NCBI RefSeq assembly: GCF_001044255.1
Contig: NZ_JYNX01000096.1
Location: 8,163 to 50,957 of the forward strand
Length of the DNA stretch: 42,795 nucleotides
Reading direction: 5' to 3'
From: Mycolicibacterium chubuense
Lineage (GTDB): Bacteria > Actinomycetota > Actinomycetes > Mycobacteriales > Mycobacteriaceae
The translations under genes were made by a program, and so were the position numbers. The first letter of the stretch is position 1, and each line of letters begins with the position of its first letter. Of the stretch, positions 1-10,487 are shown piece after piece. The notes beneath the pieces were generated by a model. It was not told the DNA's origin. It saw only the letters and a list, made by a program, of their open reading frames with translations, and ran no database searches.

Positions 1-68
1 GCGGTCGCGGTGCCCTCGGTGCTGCTGTACCGGATCCTGACGTGCTGGCTGCCGGTGTTCATCGGCTG
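1..68 (+). pseudogene. Possible C-terminal fragment of a flippase-like (YbhN/PF03706 type) membrane protein joined to embC
   Basis: Read in frame 1, the first 60 or so bases encode PSVLLYRILTCWLPVFIG. This resembles the last membrane segment of the lysylphosphatidylglycerol-synthase-TM/flippase-like family, which typically has a VLLYRL..(F/Y)WLP...G pattern. That frame runs out at a stop near 168, and from about base 69 the clear homology is to EmbC in frame 3. In other EmbC proteins the IALGILLTWC segment follows an NNGLRPEP motif; here the residues before it are GVHRL. The homology is short and from memory. The join could be a real rearrangement or a sequencing or assembly chimera at a contig end. 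Confidence 0.35.
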
Positions 69-2138
69 CCGATCATCGCGCTGGGCATCCTGCTCACCTG
101 GTGCTCGGTGGAACGGGGCGTGGCCACCAGCCGGCTGCTACCCGTCGCGGTGGCCGTCATCATCGGGGCGTTGACGTTGTTCTCCGGACCCACCGGCATC
201 GCCGCGGTCGGCGCGCTGCTGGTCGCCATCGGACCGCTGAAAACCATTGTCGCCGCGCATGTCTCGCGGTTCGGATACTGGGCGCTGCTGGCCCCCATCG
301 CCGCCGCGGGCACGGTCACGATCTTCCTGATCTTCCGCGACCAGACGTTGGCCGCCGAACTGCAGGCCAGCAGCTTCAAGTCGGCCGTCGGCCCGAGCCT
401 GGCCTGGTTCGACGAGCACATCCGCTACTCGCGGCTGTTCACCACCAGCCCCGACGGTTCGGTGGCACGCCGGTTCGCGGTCCTGACGCTGCTGCTCGCG
501 CTCGCCGTGTCGGTGGCGATGTCGTTGCGCAAGGGCCGCATTCCCGGCACCGCCCTCGGTCCGAGCCGCCGCATCGTCGGCATCACGATCATCTCGTTCC
601 TGGCGATGATGTTCACCCCGACCAAGTGGACGCACCACTTCGGGGTGTTCGCCGGGCTGGCCGGATCCCTCGGCGCACTGGCCGCCGTCGCGGTCTCCGC
701 CGCCGCGATGCGCTCACGCCGCAACCGCACCGTGTTCGCCGCGGCCGTGCTGTTCATCGCCGCGCTGTCGTTCGCGACCGTCAACGGCTGGTGGTACGTC
801 TCGAACTTCGGTGTGCCGTGGTCGAATTCGTTCCCCGAGTGGCACTTCGGCTTCACCACGATCCTGCTCGGCTTCTCCGTGCTCGCCCTGCTGGTCGCCG
901 CGTGGCTGCACTTCTCCGGCCGCGACGGCGCCCCGGAGGACGAGCCGCGGCGGTGGCGGGGCATCGGGCGGGCGCCCCTGGCGATCGCGACGTGGGCGCT
1001 GGTGGTCTTCGAGGTCGGGTCACTGACCCTGGCGATGACGGGCCAGTACCCGGCGTGGACCGTCGGCCGCTCCAACCTCGAAGCCCTGACCGGGAAGACG
1101 TGCGGCATGGCCGAGGACGTCATGGTCGAACAGGACCCCAACGCCGGCATCCTGACCCCCGTGGGTGTGCCCGTCCGCGACTCACTGGGCGCGGCGCGGT
1201 CAGAGGGCTTCAGCGCCAACGGTATTCCGTCGGACGTCTCCGCCGACCCGGTGATGGAACAACCCGGCTCGGACAACTTCGCCGACAGCGACAGCGGCGT
1301 GGTTTCCGGCAGCGAGGCGGGCACCGAGGGCGGCACGATCGCTGCGGCCGGCATCAACGGCTCCCGCGCGCGGCTGCCCTACGGGCTCGACCCCGCCCGC
1401 GTCCCCGTGCTCGGCAGCTGGCGCAGCGGCATCCAGCAGCCGGCGTTCCTGCGGTCGGCCTGGTACCAGCTGCCCCCGGGCTGGAGCGAGGGCGACCGCT
1501 CCGACTCGCTGCTGGTGGTGTCCGCGGCGGGCCGGTTCGACCCGAGCGACGTCGCGGTGCAGTGGGCCACCACCGGTGACGACCCGGCCGGCAGCATCGG
1601 CTTCGCCGACGTCGGCGCTTCCCCGGCGTGGCGGAACCTGCGCGCGCCGCTCAGCGCGATCCCCGCCGACGCCACCCGGGTGCGCTTGGTCGCGACCGAT
1701 GACGACCTGAGCCCGACGCACTGGATCGCGCTGACCCCGCCCCGCATCCCCCAGCTGCGCACCCTGCAGGACGTCGTGGGGTCCTCGGATCCGGTGCTGC
1801 TGGACTGGCTGGTCGGGCTGGCGTTCCCGTGCCAGCGCCCGTTCGGGCACCGCAACGGCGTCGTCGAGGTGCCCAAGTGGCGGATCATGCCCGACCGCTT
1901 CGGCGCCGAGGCCAACTCGCCGGTGATGGACTACCTGGGCGGCGGACCGCTCGGCATCACCGAGCTCCTGCTGCGCGCCACGACGGTGCCGACCTACCTG
2001 AAGTACGACTGGTTCCGCGACTGGGGCGCGCTGCAGCAGCTCACGCCGTACTACCCGGGCGCCCAACCCGCCCGGCTCGAGCTCGGTTCGGCAACGCGCA
2101 GCGGTCTGTGGAGCCCGGCGCCGCTGCGGCTGAGCTAG
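3..2138 (+). CDS. embC: Arabinosyltransferase EmbC, 5'-truncated (C-terminal half only)
   Basis: EmbC is a GT-C arabinosyltransferase that extends the arabinan of lipoarabinomannan, using decaprenyl-phosphoarabinose on the outer face of the plasma membrane. Recognisable EmbC homology starts at about base 69 (IALGILLTWCSVERG) and runs to the TAG at 2136. It covers the later membrane helices, including FTPTKWTHHFGVFAGLAGS and [13 protein letters not shown], and the periplasmic carbohydrate-binding C-terminal domain (GLDPARVPVLGSWR, PPRIPQL, YDWFRDWG). The N-terminal half, which carries the catalytic DD loop, is absent from the window. The sequence just upstream of base 69 is not EmbC-like, so this copy may be a true 5' deletion. 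The frame is open to the window edge, so the true start cannot be placed. A 5-kb insertion follows the stop codon. Confidence 0.85.
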   Translation, partial: GRGALGAAVPDPDVLAAGVHRLPIIALGILLTWCSVERGVATSRLLPVAVAVIIGALTLFSGPTGIAAVGALLVAIGPLKTIVAAHVSRFGYWALLAPIAAAGTVTIFLIFRDQTLAAELQASSFKSAVGPSLAWFDEHIRYSRLFTTSPDGSVARRFAVLTLLLALAVSVAMSLRKGRIPGTALGPSRRIVGITIISFLAMMFTPTKWTHHFGVFAGLAGSLGALAAVAVSAAAMRSRRNRTVFAAAVLFIAALSFATVNGWWYVSNFGVPWSNSFPEWHFGFTTILLGFSVLALLVAAWLHFSGRDGAPEDEPRRWRGIGRAPLAIATWALVVFEVGSLTLAMTGQYPAWTVGRSNLEALTGKTCGMAEDVMVEQDPNAGILTPVGVPVRDSLGAARSEGFSANGIPSDVSADPVMEQPGSDNFADSDSGVVSGSEAGTEGGTIAAAGINGSRARLPYGLDPARVPVLGSWRSGIQQPAFLRSAWYQLPPGWSEGDRSDSLLVVSAAGRFDPSDVAVQWATTGDDPAGSIGFADVGASPAWRNLRAPLSAIPADATRVRLVATDDDLSPTHWIALTPPRIPQLRTLQDVVGSSDPVLLDWLVGLAFPCQRPFGHRNGVVEVPKWRIMPDRFGAEANSPVMDYLGGGPLGITELLLRATTVPTYLKYDWFRDWGALQQLTPYYPGAQPARLELGSATRSGLWSPAPLRLS

Positions 2139-2145
2139 ACCCGTT

Positions 2146-2169
2146 TACCATCGAGCCTCTTGCCTGCCC
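2146..2169 (+). repeat. Left 24-nt direct repeat flanking the insertion (altered copy of the embA start region)
   Basis: This 24-mer begins TACCATCGAGCCTC and ends CTGCCC. It matches 7192-7215 at 22 of 24 positions, and similarity stops abruptly on both sides of both copies. It lies 7 nt after the embC stop. One of the two mismatches turns the embA GTG start codon into TTG. It could be an attL/attR-like core, a long target-site duplication, or a duplication made by recombination. Confidence 0.75.
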
Positions 2170-2274: not shown

Positions 2275-5200
2275 ATGAGCCAAGATGGGGGACAGACGGC
2301 CACACAGGACGCGTCGGACACGCCAACAGCCGATGCAATGGAACTGATTCGATCTCACTTCGCCGGCGCAACGGTCGAACTTATCCGACCTCTGTCTGGT
2401 GGCAAGTCGGGCGCCCAAGTTCTGTTGATAGATCTCACAGACGCCACGCAAAGACGTGACGGGCAATATGTGGCCAAGGTTCAAGCCGCGAGGACCGCGC
2501 ACGGCAACCCCAACGAACGGTTCCGCACGCTGGGGGCCTACACGCTCGGGCATACGCCTGAAATACCGCTTATTGAGGTGAAAGATGGCGTCTCCGTAGA
2601 GCTATATGATCTCGCTGGCTTCAGCACTAAAACCACGCGTACCTTCCGAGAAGTACGTAATCAGAACGACAAACAGCATATTTTGTCCGAACTGGTGCTG
2701 GGGCTCATAAGCGACCAATTTGATGTTGAATCTCGACGGGCATCCTATGATATCTCGCCTATTGACATCCTTCAGGAGTGGTTAGGTGAGAAGTTTTGGA
2801 CCACTGAGCGTTACAAGAAACTATCCAGCGGCACTTCAATAGGTTTCGCGGACGAAGCGAAAGTCTTTCTATTTGCCGCAGAGCTGCTGCCAAACCCCAT
2901 TTCTATCATTTCCGAGCTGGCGAAGCAGGATCACGCGCGCGTGGGTGTCATTGCCGGGTTGAACCACGGCGATCTTCACACAGCGAATATACTTGTTCAA
3001 GGTAGCACTCTCTCCACGCAAGTGCACCATTGGATCATCGACGCTAACTGGGCGGATGAATCTCCGCTTCTATACGACTATTCTTACCTCGAAGTGTCAC
3101 TGATCCTCGACTCGCTATCATCTTCGACTCATCTCGAAATTCTGTCGGTTTTGAGATCGATCAACAAACAGAATGGGAACGAACATCAATTCGATCTCGG
3201 GCATACGGACCTTATTAGCAACATCTGCACAATTAGAGATATTGTTTGTGGTTACCTTGAGGAACACCAGCAACGGCGTGCCGACGTCTGGCAGCAGCAA
3301 CTCCTGCTGTCGCGAATAGCCGCTGGCTTGAATTGGGCGTCGAAGCCTATGGACGCGAACCAAAGGTCCGTGGGTTTCCTGTACGCCTGTTGGGCTCTGC
3401 GCGACTGGCTCACTCGGTACTTGCCCGACTACTGGCAGTCCGCGGCCACGATAGCCGACAAGGGGTCGACCGCGGTTCGTGTAAAAGAAGCCGACGTATC
3501 GGTTGAGGACGGTGAGGCGAAGCTACGTCACTATTGGGAACTACTTCAGTCGATTCCCACAGACACCGATTTGATCATCGTCACGGGCAGAGTTCGTCAC
3601 CTGAGCTCGCGCATCGAAACGCTGGCCACAATGAGGATCGCAGCAGTAGTAGATCTTGACCCGGACAGCGACACGGAGGGACTGCTCGGCGCGCTCGGCG
3701 ACTACCTCCGAGTGAGTCGCCGTCTCAATGTGTTCGGCTCGAACGAGAACTTCGTGAGTACCAGGCGTTCGACAAACTGGTTAATGGCCAACGGCTGGAG
3801 CACGCGATCCGAGGCGACAGCCGATGAAGTAACCCAGTGGCGTCGCGGCGGGTACCTGGCTCGCGTTCGTCGCGTGATAGACAGTACGGTCGCCGCGAGC
3901 ACATCGAGATCTGTGTATGTGCTGTCAATAAGAGACGAAACGACACGGGATATGGCGCTCAGAGTTTTAGAGTACATCGACGAAACATACTCGGGCATTG
4001 TCGAGCAGATTGACCTTTCCGCGACAATCGCGTCGCCATTCTCCGTACACCGCTTTGTCGATGCGCGCGAGAATGCAATACTCTCCGACGTTTCGAATTC
4101 AGCTGTTCGTATACCAGGTAGTAACGGGCGGGTTGAGGTCGATGTCGTCACGCTTCACCGGTATGAAGCGGACCTCGAGCTGCTTCACGATCAAATCCTG
4201 ACGCGCCCAAGTTCCGCATCTTCCGCAGGGTTGGTCGATGAGTTCTGGCGCGGACGCCCACCGACGTGGGACGAGATAGCCGCCGGCATCGATATCCGCC
4301 GCCAAGAAGAAGCGACTTTCATCGACACATGCCGCAAAGCTATTAATGAGGGCCGATCAACGATTCTGCGTTTGGACCACTCCCCCGGTGCAGGCGCGAC
4401 CACGCTGGTAAGACGAGTTGCTTGGGAACTCATGACAGAGATGCCTGTGGCTCTGGTAAGTAAGTTCGGGGACACAACTGGCGAGCTGATTGCCGAGATT
4501 TCTACTCTAGCAGACTTACCGGTGCTGGTATTCGCTGAGAGCGCCGTGGTCTCCGAGTCTGACCGAGACGCACTATTCGAGTCAATTACAGGCAACCACG
4601 GGAAAGCGACCATAGTCTGGATCAACCGGACCACGTCGCCCTCGAATCGGGCTATGCAACTCATAGATCCGATGACTCGGACGGAAAGTGCAAGCTTCAT
4701 TCACGCATTCTCTGAGTTGAGTCAACACGCGGATTCCCGTGCCGACCTCCAGTCGCTGTTGACTAACTATGATTCCCAGCCCAAGCAGTTTCATTCGCCC
4801 TTCTATTACGGCTTAACGGCGTTCGAGCGCGACTTCAACGGAATTGAAGATTTTGTTACCAATCATCTGCATAACCTAGGCCCTCTTCAGATAAAGATCG
4901 CGCAGTATCTCGCACTTGTCACTCGCTTTAGCCAGGTAGGACTATACCCAGAGATAGTTCGGAGATGGCTTGGCAGGCCAGAGCGTCCACCGCACGAGAT
5001 AACTGACGAGTATTTGGTCGAGCTGCTCGGAGCCGACTTAAGACATTTAGTCGTGTCGGATGGCTTTGCTTATCGGTTGCTTCATCCCATTATTGCCGAC
5101 GGTGTACTAAGTTACTATCATGACAAATACGGGCAACTAAGCTTGGCTCAAATCTCCGTGCGTCTAATTGAGCAAGTGCATGATGTTCTGGGTGAAAGCA

Positions 5201-7014
5201 GTGAGCCCGCTCGGTCACTTCTTCGAAGCATCTTTATTACTCGATCCGGGGAGTTCCGCCGTGATGGCTTTTCCGAACTGGTTGGGAAATTCTCGCCAGA
5301 AGAAGGGCAGTTAGTATTCGAAAAACTTACCGATAAGTTCCCAAACGAACCTCATTTCTGGAACCATCGGGGCAGGTTCCACATTTACAAGGTGCGTGGA
5401 GATTACGAGACTGCGGAGTCATATCTAGAACGGGCAGTAGATACCGCGTCTGCCAACTCGAAGGGGACACACCTTCACACCTTGGGGATGGTTCGCAGGC
5501 TATGGGTCGAGCGGCAGATCGCCACAATCGCTTCTGGAGATGAAGGTCTTAAAGGCGTTGCACTGATCGAAGTTCTCAGGCCGACGTACGACTCCGCGAT
5601 GACGGCCTTCCAAGAATCGCGAACATTAGGTTCCGGCTCAAATTATTCTTGGGTAACGCCAATCCAGCTAACAAATACCGTCGTTGAGTTTTTGATAAAG
5701 CAGTCTGGCGCAAGCAATCTTCACGAACTACTGGAAACGACAGGTGAGGTAAGTGACTGGGTCGCCGACCAGATGCATCAAGCGGAGAGTTTGCTTGACG
5801 TCGTGCGGGTGGACTCCCTGGAGCGCACCCATGACCGCGACTATTACGTCGAACTCAGCGGGAAGATTGACGCGCTATATGGGGACGTTGATACGCTGAT
5901 TGAGCAGTGGCAAAGCATTCGGGATTCCGGAGCCGGAAACTCTGCGACGCTCGGCTGCTCAATGGCTCGGGCCGTATTCTCGTCGTCGGGCCGTTCATGG
6001 GCTCACGTCGATGAAGCGCGCGCGCGTCAACTCGCCGAGATGCTACAACCTGCTGTCGATTCGGGAACGGCATCCGACGCTGACCTCAGAACATGGATCC
6101 AGGCATACCGACGTTTGCCGGAATACTCCAGTTCTGCGGCTTTGGAGCGGGTTACGTATTACGCGTCAGAACGGAATTCTGTCGATGGCGCTTATTATGC
6201 CTACGTATTGTCGTTCCAGCTTTGGGCGAACGGTGGGCTAGTCGATCAAAATCGCGTGAGGCATTATCTTGACCTCTGCAAGCGTTCAACTCGAGACCGT
6301 CGGCAAGATTGGAGCTACGAGTGGATCTCCGTAAGCGGCAAGGCAGAGATCGTGCACTTCAGCGAGTTGGGTCGGTGGACACGCGACCGACGGCAAGTCT
6401 GGTCGCAGTCGGAGAAGCTTGGTCGAGTCCGCGGCGTTATCGAAGACGTTGACGACTATCGGAGTGGCTACACGCGCGTCGGCAAGGGCACCTTGACTGC
6501 CTTCTTTGCCCCTCAAGGTGAGGTATTGGCTTCTCGGGACATCAACGAACGTGCCGACTTTTATCTGGGCTTTAGTTACAGCGGCCTACGCGGGTGGTCG
6601 GTCAAACTGATTACCGACAAGAACGATCAGTCAGACAGCGATCGCTCGGCCGAAAACCTTGAGTACTCGCGTGTTCAGAGTTCAGCAGTTGCTGCACCTG
6701 CTAGTCCGAAGAGCATTGACAATGCGCCGACTACAGAAATCTCGGAATCGGCGCCTGTGGACACCTCGTCTCTTTCGGAATTGGACCGAAAAATAAGGGC
6801 TTTCTTGGCTCAAGTATGCCACGAACACCCAGGGGGTATCTTCGCTGGCGAGCTAAGCACCTTGGGAAATCTTCTTATTCAACAGTTTGGCGTTGCGGAA
6901 TACCGGCAGTTTAAGTCCAAGTCGAAAACCTTGCATGCGGGAATACGACGACTGGGTTTCGAACTGCTGGCATCTGACGTCGGCTACTCGATAAAGCCTA
7001 TCGATTCTTACTGA
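2275..7014 (+). CDS. Giant SAMD9-like STAND NTPase with N-terminal APH/kinase-like domain (putative anti-phage protein)
   Basis: About 1,579 residues from ATG 2275; an in-frame TTG at 2236 would add 13 non-conserved residues. Visible parts: (1) residues ~20-300, an aminoglycoside-phosphotransferase/kinase-like domain with the loop HGDLHTAN (H231, D233, N238) and a second acidic site in IIDANWAD (D256). (2) Residues ~430-650, an alpha/beta region of unclear type, possibly a degenerate SIR2-like domain. (3) FWRGRPPTW (657-665) followed by Walker A GAGATT (705-710), a pairing reminiscent of SAMD9 STAND proteins, with the hydrophobic strand PVLVFAE as a possible Walker B. (4) Helical/TPR-like repeats, clearest at ~1013-1075. 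(5) FYLGFS (1429-1434, counting F as 1429) in an OB-like domain. (6) Residues ~1500-1579, winged-helix/LOTUS-like. No signal peptide or membrane segment was seen, so it is probably cytoplasmic. Composition differs from its neighbours, suggesting transfer. An immune role is inferred from family resemblance only. Confidence 0.7.
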   Translation: MSQDGGQTATQDASDTPTADAMELIRSHFAGATVELIRPLSGGKSGAQVLLIDLTDATQRRDGQYVAKVQAARTAHGNPNERFRTLGAYTLGHTPEIPLIEVKDGVSVELYDLAGFSTKTTRTFREVRNQNDKQHILSELVLGLISDQFDVESRRASYDISPIDILQEWLGEKFWTTERYKKLSSGTSIGFADEAKVFLFAAELLPNPISIISELAKQDHARVGVIAGLNHGDLHTANILVQGSTLSTQVHHWIIDANWADESPLLYDYSYLEVSLILDSLSSSTHLEILSVLRSINKQNGNEHQFDLGHTDLISNICTIRDIVCGYLEEHQQRRADVWQQQLLLSRIAAGLNWASKPMDANQRSVGFLYACWALRDWLTRYLPDYWQSAATIADKGSTAVRVKEADVSVEDGEAKLRHYWELLQSIPTDTDLIIVTGRVRHLSSRIETLATMRIAAVVDLDPDSDTEGLLGALGDYLRVSRRLNVFGSNENFVSTRRSTNWLMANGWSTRSEATADEVTQWRRGGYLARVRRVIDSTVAASTSRSVYVLSIRDETTRDMALRVLEYIDETYSGIVEQIDLSATIASPFSVHRFVDARENAILSDVSNSAVRIPGSNGRVEVDVVTLHRYEADLELLHDQILTRPSSASSAGLVDEFWRGRPPTWDEIAAGIDIRRQEEATFIDTCRKAINEGRSTILRLDHSPGAGATTLVRRVAWELMTEMPVALVSKFGDTTGELIAEISTLADLPVLVFAESAVVSESDRDALFESITGNHGKATIVWINRTTSPSNRAMQLIDPMTRTESASFIHAFSELSQHADSRADLQSLLTNYDSQPKQFHSPFYYGLTAFERDFNGIEDFVTNHLHNLGPLQIKIAQYLALVTRFSQVGLYPEIVRRWLGRPERPPHEITDEYLVELLGADLRHLVVSDGFAYRLLHPIIADGVLSYYHDKYGQLSLAQISVRLIEQVHDVLGESSEPARSLLRSIFITRSGEFRRDGFSELVGKFSPEEGQLVFEKLTDKFPNEPHFWNHRGRFHIYKVRGDYETAESYLERAVDTASANSKGTHLHTLGMVRRLWVERQIATIASGDEGLKGVALIEVLRPTYDSAMTAFQESRTLGSGSNYSWVTPIQLTNTVVEFLIKQSGASNLHELLETTGEVSDWVADQMHQAESLLDVVRVDSLERTHDRDYYVELSGKIDALYGDVDTLIEQWQSIRDSGAGNSATLGCSMARAVFSSSGRSWAHVDEARARQLAEMLQPAVDSGTASDADLRTWIQAYRRLPEYSSSAALERVTYYASERNSVDGAYYAYVLSFQLWANGGLVDQNRVRHYLDLCKRSTRDRRQDWSYEWISVSGKAEIVHFSELGRWTRDRRQVWSQSEKLGRVRGVIEDVDDYRSGYTRVGKGTLTAFFAPQGEVLASRDINERADFYLGFSYSGLRGWSVKLITDKNDQSDSDRSAENLEYSRVQSSAVAAPASPKSIDNAPTTEISESAPVDTSSLSELDRKIRAFLAQVCHEHPGGIFAGELSTLGNLLIQQFGVAEYRQFKSKSKTLHAGIRRLGFELLASDVGYSIKPIDSY

Positions 7015-7191: not shown

Positions 7192-7197
7192 TACCAT
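7192..7197 (+). promoter_or_regulatory. Candidate -10 box (TACCAT) for leaderless embA
   Basis: TACCAT fits TANNNT and lies 8 nt before the GTG start of embA at 7206. No Shine-Dalgarno sequence precedes that start. The box is part of the right direct repeat and is duplicated at 2146-2151, so the insertion kept a copy of this element directly before embA. Confidence 0.45.
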
Positions 7198-7215
7198 CGA
7201 GCCTCGTGTCTGCCC
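7192..7215 (+). repeat. Right 24-nt direct repeat flanking the insertion (spans the embA start codon)
   Basis: This copy matches 2146-2169 at 22 of 24 positions and contains the embA GTG (7206-7208) plus the next two codons. It is presumably the native sequence, since it is joined in frame to intact embA. Collapsing the two copies would restore an embC-embA gap of about 21 nt. Confidence 0.75.
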
Positions 7216-10200
7216 GCAGTTCCCGTCTCGTCGCGATCGCCGCGGGCACTCTGGGGATCCTGGGAATCATCCTGTGCGCACTCGCGCCGCTGCTCCCCGT
7301 CCGGCAGACCACCGCCACCATCCTGTGGCCGCAGGGGGCCGGCGCCGACGGGAACGTCAGCAGCATCACCGCGCCGCTGGTGTCGGGCGCCCCGAAGTCA
7401 CTCGACGTCACGATCCCCTGCACCGCGGTGGCGAGCCTGCCCGCCGACGGCGGGCTGGTGTTCTCGACGATCCCGCCGGGCGGCATCGACGCCGGGCGCA
7501 ACGGACTGTTCGTGCGCGCCAACGCCGACGTCGTCTACGTCGCGTTCCGTGACACCGTCGCCGCGGTCGCGCCCCGCCCCGCGGTGAACACCGGCGCCTG
7601 CAGCGCACTGCGGCTGTGGGCCAACGTCGGCGCGGTCGGCGCGGACTTCGTCGGGATCCCCGGCGCCGCCGGCACCCTCAGCCTCGACAAGCGGCCCCAG
7701 GTGGCCGGGGTGTTCACCGATCTGCGGGTGCCGATGGACGCGGGAGCCGCCCCGGCGGCGACATCGGACACACGCCTGAACGCGCGCATCGACGTCGACA
7801 CCCGCTTCATCACGACACCGACCGCGCTGAAGACCCTCGTGATGGTGCTCGGCGTGCTGTGCGTGATCGGGTCGATCGTGGCGCTGGCGCTGCTGGACCG
7901 GGTGTCGGGGCGGCGGCCGCCCCGCACGCGCGGCCGGGTCGGATGGGCGACCTGGGTCGCCGACGCCGGCGTGATCGGTGGCCTGCTGGTGTGGCACATC
8001 GTCGGCGCGCAGTCCTCCGACGACGGCTACAACCTGACGATCGCGCGGGTGTCCGGCGAGGCCGGCTACAGCGTCAACTACTTCCGCTACTTCGGCGCCT
8101 CCGAGGCGCCGTTCGACTGGTACCAGAGCGTGCTCGCCCACCTCGCCTCGATCAGCACCGCCGGGGTCTGGATGCGGCTGCCCGCCACCGCCGCGGGCAT
8201 CGCGACATGGTTGATCCTGTCCCGGTGCGTGCTGCCGCGGCTGGGCCGGCGGGTGGCCGCCAACAAGGTCGCCGTGTGGACCGCCGGCGTGGTGTTCCTG
8301 GCCGCGTGGCTGCCGTTCAACAACGGGTTGCGTCCCGAACCGCTGATCGCGTTCGCGGTGGTCGCGGTGTGGATGCTGGTCGAGTCGACGCTGGGGACGC
8401 GGCGGCTCTGGCCCACCGCCGTCGCGATCGTGATCGCGATGTTCTCGGTCACGCTGGCACCGCAGGGCCTCGTCGCACTGGCGCCGCTGCTGGTCGGCGC
8501 CCGCGGGATCACGCGCATCGTCTCCGCCCGCCGCCGCGTCGACGGACGGGCGGCCTCGCTGCTACCGCTGGTGGCCGCGCTGTCGTTGGTGTCGGTCATC
8601 GTGTTCCGCGACCAGACGCTGGCCACCGTCGCCGAATCGGTGCGCATCAAGTACGTCGTCGGGCCGACCATCCCCTGGTACCAGGAGTTCCTGCGGTACT
8701 ACTTCCTGACCGTCGAGGACAGCGTGGACGGCTCGCTGACCCGCCGCTTCGCGGTGCTGGTCCTGCTGCTGTGCCTGTTCGGCCTGATCATGGTGCTGCT
8801 GCGACGCGGCCGCGTGCCCGGCGCCATCAGCGGCCCGGTGTGGCGGCTGGCCGGCACCACCGCGATCGGCCTGCTGCTGCTGACGCTGACCCCCACGAAA
8901 TGGGCGGTGCAGTTCGGCGCCTTCGCGGGGCTCGCGGGGGCGCTGGGCGGGGTCACCGCGTTCGCGTTCGCCCGGGTGGGTCTGCACAGCCGACGCAACC
9001 TGGCGCTGTACGTGACCGCGCTGCTGTTCGTGCTGGCCTGGGCGACCTCGGGCATCAACGGCTGGTTCTACGTCGGCAACTACGGGGTGCCGTGGTTCGA
9101 CAAGCAGCCGGTGATCGCCCACTTCCCGGTGACGACGATCTTCCTGGTGCTGGCCATCGCGTGCGGCCTGCTGGCCGGCTGGCTGCACTTCCGGATGGAC
9201 TACGCCGGCCACACCGAGGTCGCCGACACCAGCCGCAACCGCGCGATCGCCTCCACCCCGCTGCTCGTCGTCGCGACGATCATGGTGGTGCTCGAGTTGG
9301 GCTCGCTGCTCAAGGCGACCGTCGGCCGCTACCCCGTCTACACCACCGGGGCCGCCAACATCTCGGCGCTGCGCTCCGGCCTCTCCGACGAGAGCTGCGC
9401 GATGGCCGACGACGTCCTCGTCGAAGCCGACACCAACGCCGGCATGCTGGAACCGGTTCCCGGTCAGCGTTGGGGACGGTACGGCCCGCTCGGCGGCGAG
9501 AACCCGGTCGGGTTCACCCCCAACGGCATCAGCGACACCCTCGAGCCGGCCGAACCGGTCGCCGCGAACCCGGGCACCGTGAACTCCGACGGCCCGGTCG
9601 ACAAGCCGAACATCGGCGTCGGCTTCGCGGCGGGCACCGGCGGCGGCTACGGCCCGGAGGGCGTCAACGGGTCGCGAGTGTTCCTGCCGTTCGGGCTGGA
9701 TCCCAAGCGCACGCCGGTGATGGGTAGCTACGACGAGAACCAGCAGGCCGCCAAGGCCACCTCGGCCTGGTATCAGCTGCCGCCGCGCACCCCGGACCGG
9801 CCCCTGGTGACCGTCGCCGCCGCCGGCGCCATCTGGTACTACGAGGAAGACGGCTCGTTCAACTACGGCCAGTCACTCAAGCTGCAGTGGGGCGTGCACC
9901 GGCCCGACGGGTCCTACCAGGCCCTGGGCGAGGTCTATCCGATCGACATCTTCCAGCAGAAGGCGTGGCGCAACCTGCGCTTCCCGCTGACCACGGCGCC
10001 GCCGGAGGCCAACGTCGCGCGCATCGTCGCCGACGACCCGAACCTGTCCGAGGACCAGTGGTTCGGCTTCACCCCGCCGCGGGTGCCGGTGCTGCAGACC
10101 GTCGAGCAGTTCCTCGGCCCCGACACCCCGGTACTGATGGACATCGCCACCGCCGCCAACTTCCCGTGCCAGCGGCCGTTCGCCGAACACTTGGGTATCG

Positions 10201-10487
10201 CCGAACTGCCGCAGTACCGGATCATCCCGAACTTCAAGCAGATGGTCGCGTCGTCGAACCAGTGGCAGTCGGCCCAGGACGGCGGACCGTTCCTGTTCAT
10301 CCAGGCGCTGCTGCGCACCGCGACGATCCCGACGTACCTGAACGGCGACTGGTACCGCGACTGGGGATCGCTGGAGCGCTACATCCGCGTGGTGCCGCGT
10401 GACCAGGCGCCCGACGCCGTCGTCGAGGAAGGATCGACCCGCGTGTTCGGCTGGAACCGGGGCGGACCCATCAGGGCCCTCCCGTGA
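7206..10487 (+). CDS. embA: Arabinosyltransferase EmbA
   Basis: A 1,093-residue GT-C arabinosyltransferase that works with EmbB to build the terminal hexa-arabinofuranoside of arabinogalactan from decaprenyl-phosphoarabinose. The N-terminus has a membrane helix followed by [16 protein letters not shown], the usual emb start. The acidic loop SSDDGYN places D272 and D273 at the donor-binding site. Multiple membrane segments follow, then the C-terminal carbohydrate-binding domain ([38 protein letters not shown]). Length is normal for the family. The GTG start at 7206 lies inside the right direct repeat, has no Shine-Dalgarno sequence and sits 8 nt after a TACCAT box. It overlaps embB by 4 nt (GTGA). 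It was told from EmbC and EmbB by sequence signature and gene order. Confidence 0.95.

Follow-up and report, generated by a model that had tools for sequence, protein, structure and literature searches.

Between embC and embA of Mycolicibacterium chubuense lies a single giant open reading frame (ORF), and its position raises the questions of which family its product belongs to, how it reached the locus and what it might do there. The locus was analyzed within a window, by which the whole stretch of 42,795 nucleotides is meant (positions 8,163 to 50,957 of contig NZ_JYNX01000096.1, assembly GCF_001044255.1), and all coordinates are window coordinates unless a locus handle precedes them. The gene encodes, with near certainty, a bacterial SAMD9-family STAND protein, and it was very probably acquired horizontally. 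The best explanation, to which a probability of roughly 0.6 is assigned, is an acquired single-gene protein of this family that would combine sensing, assembly and a kinase effector in abortive infection, inserted with copies of the embA promoter.

The ORF is one frame with an ATG start and no internal stop, and an in-frame TTG stands 13 codons 5' of the ATG. A preliminary description of the sequence had reported a protein of this length between embC and embA; it was found intact, with all motifs at the residues reported, namely FWRGRPPTW at residue 657, GAGATT at 705, NHRGRFHIYKVRGDYETA at 1030 and FYLGFS at 1429. A chance ORF was ruled out, since eight of eight relatives carry one open frame of 1,481-1,614 residues. 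The features of the gene and its product are listed below.

2275..7014, forward strand: SAMD9-family STAND ORF, 1,579 residues, identified from its translation, Pfam (TCAD9 and nSTAND_NTPase5) and the match of a family profile to SAMD9 (E 3.3e-23)
2275..3474, forward strand: N-terminal domain of APH/choline-kinase fold (TCAD9), about residues 1-400, retaining Lys68, H-G-D-L-H-x-x-N (231-238) and I-D (255-256)
3511..4194, forward strand: variant SIR2-like region, about residues 413-640, in which the SAMD9 alignment begins at profile position 437; neither GAGxS nor the TTNxD NAD motif is present
4222..5109, forward strand: STAND-type P-loop NTPase and the helical part that follows, about residues 650-945, from Pfam, the SAMD9 profile match and a fold match
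4378-4404, forward strand: Walker A motif HSPGAGATT, residues 702-710, with Ala in place of the canonical Lys
5137..6309, forward strand: TPR/helical-repeat array, about residues 955-1345, the presumed sensor
6412..6609, forward strand: C-terminal OB-like region with FYLGFS at residues 1429-1434, common to the SAMD9 C-terminus; model confidence is low there
6778..7011, forward strand: C-terminal domain of helices plus a hairpin (winged-helix-like), about residues 1502-1579, preceded by a disordered linker; predicted local distance difference test (pLDDT) 62-86

Membership in the SAMD9 family was assessed with a profile of the window protein and seven relatives (25-38% identity; L008 was omitted as a near-copy of L004). 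Against PDB sequences, this profile matched human SAMD9 chains with E-values between 3.3e-23 and 7e-21, the match extending from the SIR2-like region through the TPRs, and the other matches up to an E-value of 10 were TPR designs only. The assignment rests on the profile, because the single-sequence match to SAMD9 was just 0.08-0.27. Profile positions 437-1126 were spanned in four of the six SAMD9 sequences matched and positions 653-1126 in the other two. When a model of the core (residues 405-1579) was compared with PDB structures, the top fold match was SAMD9, aligned from model residue 11 with TM-scores of 0.26-0.28. The SAMD9-like identity proposed in the preliminary description was thereby upheld, and the NTPase region lies within the part that was matched. 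By Pfam, nSTAND_NTPase5 was found with an E-value of 3.9e-10 and 40.1 bits (cut-off 34); across the order, matches to this family at E<=0.001 are uninformative, being present in every one of the 298 genomes and 14 controls, and matches above the cut-off occur in 44 of the 298 genomes (controls, 0 of 14), a distribution far wider than that of the SAMD9-like family.

Motifs were surveyed in 15 aligned proteins, including seven relatives added later, and 14 of the 15 are kinase-bearing. The P-loop H-x-P-G-x-G-G-[TS]-T occurs in 14, and every one of the 15 has the upstream His; Ala for the last Gly before the T is confined to the window protein. Gly for the Walker Lys with a conserved upstream His is the SAMD9-family signature in the accessible text of PMC5445408, and the window P-loop reads as a deviant form of it, one step further changed. 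Neither of the SIR2 NAD motifs, GAGxS and TTNxD as defined in the part of PMC12931631 that is available, was found in any of the 15 proteins (L096 has GAGLA). The SIR2-like part is taken to be non-catalytic because both are absent, and an NADase SIR2 effector was rejected on the same grounds. Of the SAMD9 signatures pointed out in the preliminary description, the TPRs, the GxPPTW-type motif and FYLGFS were present, as was the P-loop apart from its Ala for Gly, but the OB-like end fared less well: this second SAMD9 stretch scores 0.2 bits, which alone is not significant, and the model is poor there. The winged-helix-like C-terminal domain is present in seven of the eight aligned members and absent in L009; its profile gave two chance-level matches against PDB and no sequence relative. 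It may resemble OST-HTH/LOTUS domains.

An AlbA_2 domain, the type in which the anticodon-nuclease activity of human SAMD9 resides according to the accessible portion of a later review (PMC13245274), was not found by Pfam, and TCAD9 stands at the N-terminus instead. AlbA_2 belongs to the core architecture of the family but has been lost in some members, as its describers themselves state. The missing AlbA_2 does not exclude membership in the family, because bacterial members with a kinase in its place are described in PMC5445408, as far as its available text goes.

This N-terminal domain, overlooked in the preliminary description, is by sequence and model a phosphotransferase of TCAD9/APH fold that retains its catalytic motifs and whose activity is predicted. 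TCAD9 was matched with an E-value of 8.8e-16 and 58.5 bits (cut-off 40), and it was found by Pfam in eight of eight aligned members and in two of four further kinase-bearing members scanned. Both H-x-D-L-x-x-x-N and the metal-binding Asp ([IV]D) are present in all 14 kinase-bearing members, of which 11 have Lys at the ATP-binding position and 3 have Arg. A fold search with the kinase model returned APH, choline and 5-methylthioribose kinases, among which no nearest kinase can be named since the top rows of the list (VIA) lie within 1-2 Z of one another. The kinase profile found, at best, a poor match to MARF1 among PDB sequences (E 0.043). A eukaryotic-type protein kinase was rejected, as Pfam gave TCAD9, APH, Kdo and EcKL for the eight members and no Pkinase at E<=1. 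Two Streptomyces relatives (L095 and L096; 2,022 and 2,075 residues) extend several hundred residues past the shared core, and no Pfam match at E<=0.05 was found in their extra C-terminal part.

The domain appears to be exchangeable. In genome G335, from the same bacterial family, the protein L098 (1102-5034) has a core 25% identical to the window protein over residues 403-1446 of the latter. Its residues 55-281 match PNP_UDP_1 (8.3e-19), no TCAD9 was found in it, its nSTAND5 score falls short of the cut-off (22.2 vs 34) and its P-loop reads HAPGAGGST. This suggests, from sequence comparison, that a nucleoside phosphorylase takes the place of the kinase on the same core and that the N-terminal domain is a swappable effector. 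According to the accessible part of Kaur et al. 2020 (PMC7159879), the effectors of conflict systems include active APH-superfamily kinases, whose substrates might be small molecules, and by analogy the TCAD9 domain fits that description.

The composition of the gene sets it apart from its surroundings. In 1-kb windows its guanine-plus-cytosine (GC) content is 0.51-0.57, vs about 0.69-0.73 in the emb flanks, and its GC content at third codon positions (GC3) is 0.588, vs 0.928, 0.951 and 0.945 in embC, embA and embB. The codons TTA, CTA, ATA and AGA are used 9, 23, 21 and 11 times, each occurring 0-1 times in the emb genes, and AGG is used 10 times (0, 1 and 3 times in embC, embA and embB). The gene was found in 1 of 297 genomes of the genus, namely that of the window, and in none of the 296 other congeners sampled. 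Acquisition was judged very probable because of the low GC3 relative to the emb genes and this absence from congeners; the earlier suggestion of acquisition from low GC and rare codons thus held, and a native-like gene shared by all relatives was not seen.

A search for the same architecture, as had been proposed, yielded eight relatives on genome contigs, from Gordonia soli, Actinomadura nitritigenes, five Streptomyces and one Janthinobacterium. Left out of the counts were L008 (near-copy of L004), L010 (identical to L002) and L012 (identical to L006); L039 is from the same genome as L016, L079 and L084 (both G1426) are L005 or a near-identical copy of it (99.8% over 471 residues), and L083 and L085 were not extended. 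The gene was present in 3 of 251 genomes of the family including that of the window, the others being G335 and G429 (identical to L002 of Gordonia soli across the 7.2 kb compared), and in 4 of 394 genomes of the class including that of the window, two of the four matching over the kinase part only. The kinase domain was found in 9 of 323 Streptomyces genomes, in frames of 1,607-2,078 residues. All seven relatives measured are lower in GC than their own locus (0.42 vs 0.57 for the Janthinobacterium gene, L009). An ORF of phage integrase type lies about 600 bases from the Janthinobacterium gene (L009 13032-13814, reverse strand).

The site of entry is marked by a 24-nt direct repeat, which with its neighbors is laid out as follows.

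3..2138, forward strand: embC, host gene recognized by Pfam, partial and cut by the window start
2146..2169, forward strand: left direct repeat, duplicating the -10 box and start of embA with TTG in place of GTG, 22 of 24 positions identical to the right copy
7192..7215, forward strand: right direct repeat, the embA -10 box TACCAT plus GTG start, taken to be the intact native copy
7206..10487, forward strand: embA, host gene recognized by Pfam

The genes embC, embA and embB all match Pfam arabinosyltransferase families, and the order is embC, giant ORF, embA, embB; past embB lie genes of metallo-beta-lactamase-fold, Ser/Thr kinase, Pks13-type polyketide synthase, AMP-ligase and mycolyl-esterase type. 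This gene order, together with the emb genes themselves, marks the host as a mycobacterium. In M. tuberculosis, TACCAT is the -10 box of embA, and altering it abolished promoter activity (PMC2885622, accessible part). A TACCATCGA-like box stands 5' of embA in the relatives' loci examined, and the right flank aligned with relatives' loci better than any of 100 shuffles in eight of nine. The left repeat begins 7 nt past the embC stop, the distance being 10 nt in two relatives with an empty site (L016 and L018). On this sequence evidence the insertion appears to have duplicated the embA promoter and start. Because the flanking repeat copies that promoter, embA probably keeps its own through the right copy, and the left copy could drive the inserted gene. 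Up to 3 mismatches permitted, the repeat has just two copies in the 5.9-Mb genome, and an att-like repeat used elsewhere was rejected on that count. A tRNA as insertion target was likewise rejected, as none lies within the window, and so was an RNA element at the locus, for which Rfam gave no match. Neither integrase nor transposase was found between the repeats, where the ORF strand holds no other long frame, and a sigma-70 scan upstream returned 0 promoters. The TTG of the left copy could open a short leaderless frame (2146-2163) 5' of the inserted gene, and a short terminator-like stem-loop at 2236-2252, just 5' of the ORF start, is near chance (1 vs 0.4 expected in shuffles).

The embC-embA site accepts extra DNA in other mycobacteria, because the gap between the two genes varies from 18 to 1,286 nt (13 loci from 12 genomes, the count omitting 7 of 20 loci that lack embC in the flank, among them that of the window's own genome and one ended by a contig edge). 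Gaps of 717 (L023), 1,286 (L029) and 959 nt (L032) offer room for other genes in congeners.

Beside the Streptomyces relatives a second gene recurs. A divergent ORF of about 230-260 residues adjoins the SAMD9-like gene in five of five Streptomyces loci, in L006 as detected by tblastn.

L004:7161-7928, L005:7196-7969 and L007:4354-5052, reverse strand: conserved neighbor ORF

Its products are 54-63% identical where compared, look helix-rich and contain a single hydrophobic segment around residue 58 (mean hydropathy 1.95). A weaker relative lies 1.7 kb from the gene in Actinomadura (L003; 37% over 180 residues); none was found in the examined flanks of L002 and L009 or in the window, and the best match in the window's own genome has an E-value of 0.17. 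Relatives of this ORF occur in 125 of 323 Streptomyces genomes, most of them away from a SAMD9-like gene. The three strongest outside the query's group (G1426, G1303 and G1258) are all adjacent to one, and adjacency holds in four of the nine Streptomyces genomes with a kinase-core gene (divergent in G795, G1426 and G1303, same direction in G1258). The mycobacterial copy, if it works, does so without this ORF. Beyond this Streptomyces/Actinomadura ORF, the neighbors of the relatives have nothing in common.

Under the preferred explanation, the TPR array would sense an invader, most likely a phage product as judged from knowledge of the family. Nucleotide-dependent oligomerization through the P-loop core would gather the N-terminal domains, and the phosphotransferase, once switched on, would phosphorylate a cellular metabolite, nucleotide or protein, so that growth would stop and the infection would be aborted. 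The left promoter copy may help express the gene while embA would probably retain the right one. By analogy, a role in anti-phage defence is judged reasonably probable, and the odds that the kinase is the effector are put slightly above even. A fuller proposal is tentative: a SAMD9 core bearing a small-molecule-type phosphotransferase, its arm exchanged between kinase and phosphorylase, may abort infection in a new way, by phosphorylation of a metabolite, nucleotide or protein and not by tRNA cleavage or loss of NAD, the lone gene having entered embCAB with duplication of the embA promoter.

Several observations weigh against the defence explanation and its parts. The core model has low global confidence (predicted TM-score, pTM, 0.43) along with its low TM-scores to SAMD9, and the Walker A motif lacks Lys, so NTP hydrolysis is uncertain. 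The phosphorylase swap was seen in one genome only, and the kinase domain could be regulatory. PADLOC gave 0 families at E<=1 for the giant protein; ten neighbor ORFs of the relatives gave one weak CorA-like match (1.9e-5) and nothing else. Plasmid records yielded one match, to the kinase part only (22% of the query), and phage records no relative at an E-value of 0.01. The alignment of the left copy fell at the repeat and outscored all 100 shuffles in only four of nine relatives (L016, L018, L020 and L021); L024 beat its shuffles elsewhere and the remaining four did not.

A rival explanation is a STAND protein with a signalling or regulatory role in development, stress or cell-wall synthesis, in which the kinase sends the signal. 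A kinase with TPRs implies signal transduction, and bacterial functions in the family are hard to predict by the accessible text of PMC5445408. No defence-island context was found around the relatives' genes examined, and the variable embC-embA gap indicates a site that tolerates extra genes. Such a role is nevertheless rather unlikely in view of the very patchy spread, the foreign composition and the N-terminal swap in L098; conflict systems typically show swapping of N-terminal domains. Less probable still is a passenger gene in decay or without function, its P-loop possibly dead: the Ala at the Walker Lys position, where the family has Gly, is peculiar to the window copy (1 of 15), but the Lys is absent across the family anyway, the 4.7-kb frame runs without interruption, and apart from that Ala the motifs of the kinase, the NTPase, the TPRs and the C-terminus have been retained. 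Most improbable is a regulated resistance enzyme with an antibiotic-type small-molecule phosphotransferase. The kinase fold, that of APH, choline and 5-methylthioribose kinases, would agree with it, but Pfam gave TCAD9 and not APH in eight of eight members (APH weakly, 0.0071, in one), L098 retains the core without the kinase, and antibiotic-type phosphotransferases are not known to occur fused to a STAND core of 1,100 residues.

The namesake of the family, human SAMD9, has an antiviral role and is involved in disease, and predictions of bacterial relatives date from 2017. The sensing and switching part of these proteins is constant and their acting part varies, which makes them tractable for studying a lysine-less P-loop and TPR sensing. 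If the kinase is the effector, a phosphotransferase would join the nucleases and NADases of STAND defence proteins. The insertion shows how a gene may enter an essential cell-wall locus with the downstream promoter left in place. For bacterial homologues, prediction of function is harder according to the accessible part of PMC13245274, and no functional test of a bacterial member was found in the literature listings searched, outside of which lay most subscription papers and all preprints.

The combination of a SAMD9 core with an N-terminal kinase has been known since 2017, when the family was described in bacteria, above all actinomycetes, many members lacking AlbA_2 and carrying an N-terminal Ser/Thr kinase, with signalling predicted (Mekhedov et al. 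2017, PMC5445408, accessible text). The present protein is like those in being an actinomycete member with an N-terminal kinase and no AlbA_2; it is set apart by description, theirs being termed a Ser/Thr protein kinase in that text and the present one being TCAD9 of APH-type fold. Added here are the class to which the kinase belongs, its exchange for a phosphorylase, an insertion with promoter duplication and the neighbor gene beside several Streptomyces relatives. With the effectors of NTP-dependent ternary conflict systems (PMC7159879, accessible part) the protein shares the Pfam family TCAD9, but there TCAD9, a name given in PMC10910872, belongs to separate vWA-MoxR-VMAP-type systems, whereas here it is fused to a SAMD9-type core. 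Unlike Avs5 (AVAST type 5, SIR2-STAND), it has neither GAGxS nor TTNxD, and its Walker A (HSPGAGATT) is without Lys. With human SAMD9 and SAMD9L it has in common the variant SIR2-like domain, the P-loop with Gly (here Ala) for Lys and the upstream His, the TPRs and the FYLGFS C-terminus; in place of the SAM and AlbA_2-type anticodon-nuclease domains, neither recognized here by Pfam, it carries a TCAD9/APH-type kinase, and a winged-helix-like domain follows its OB-like region.
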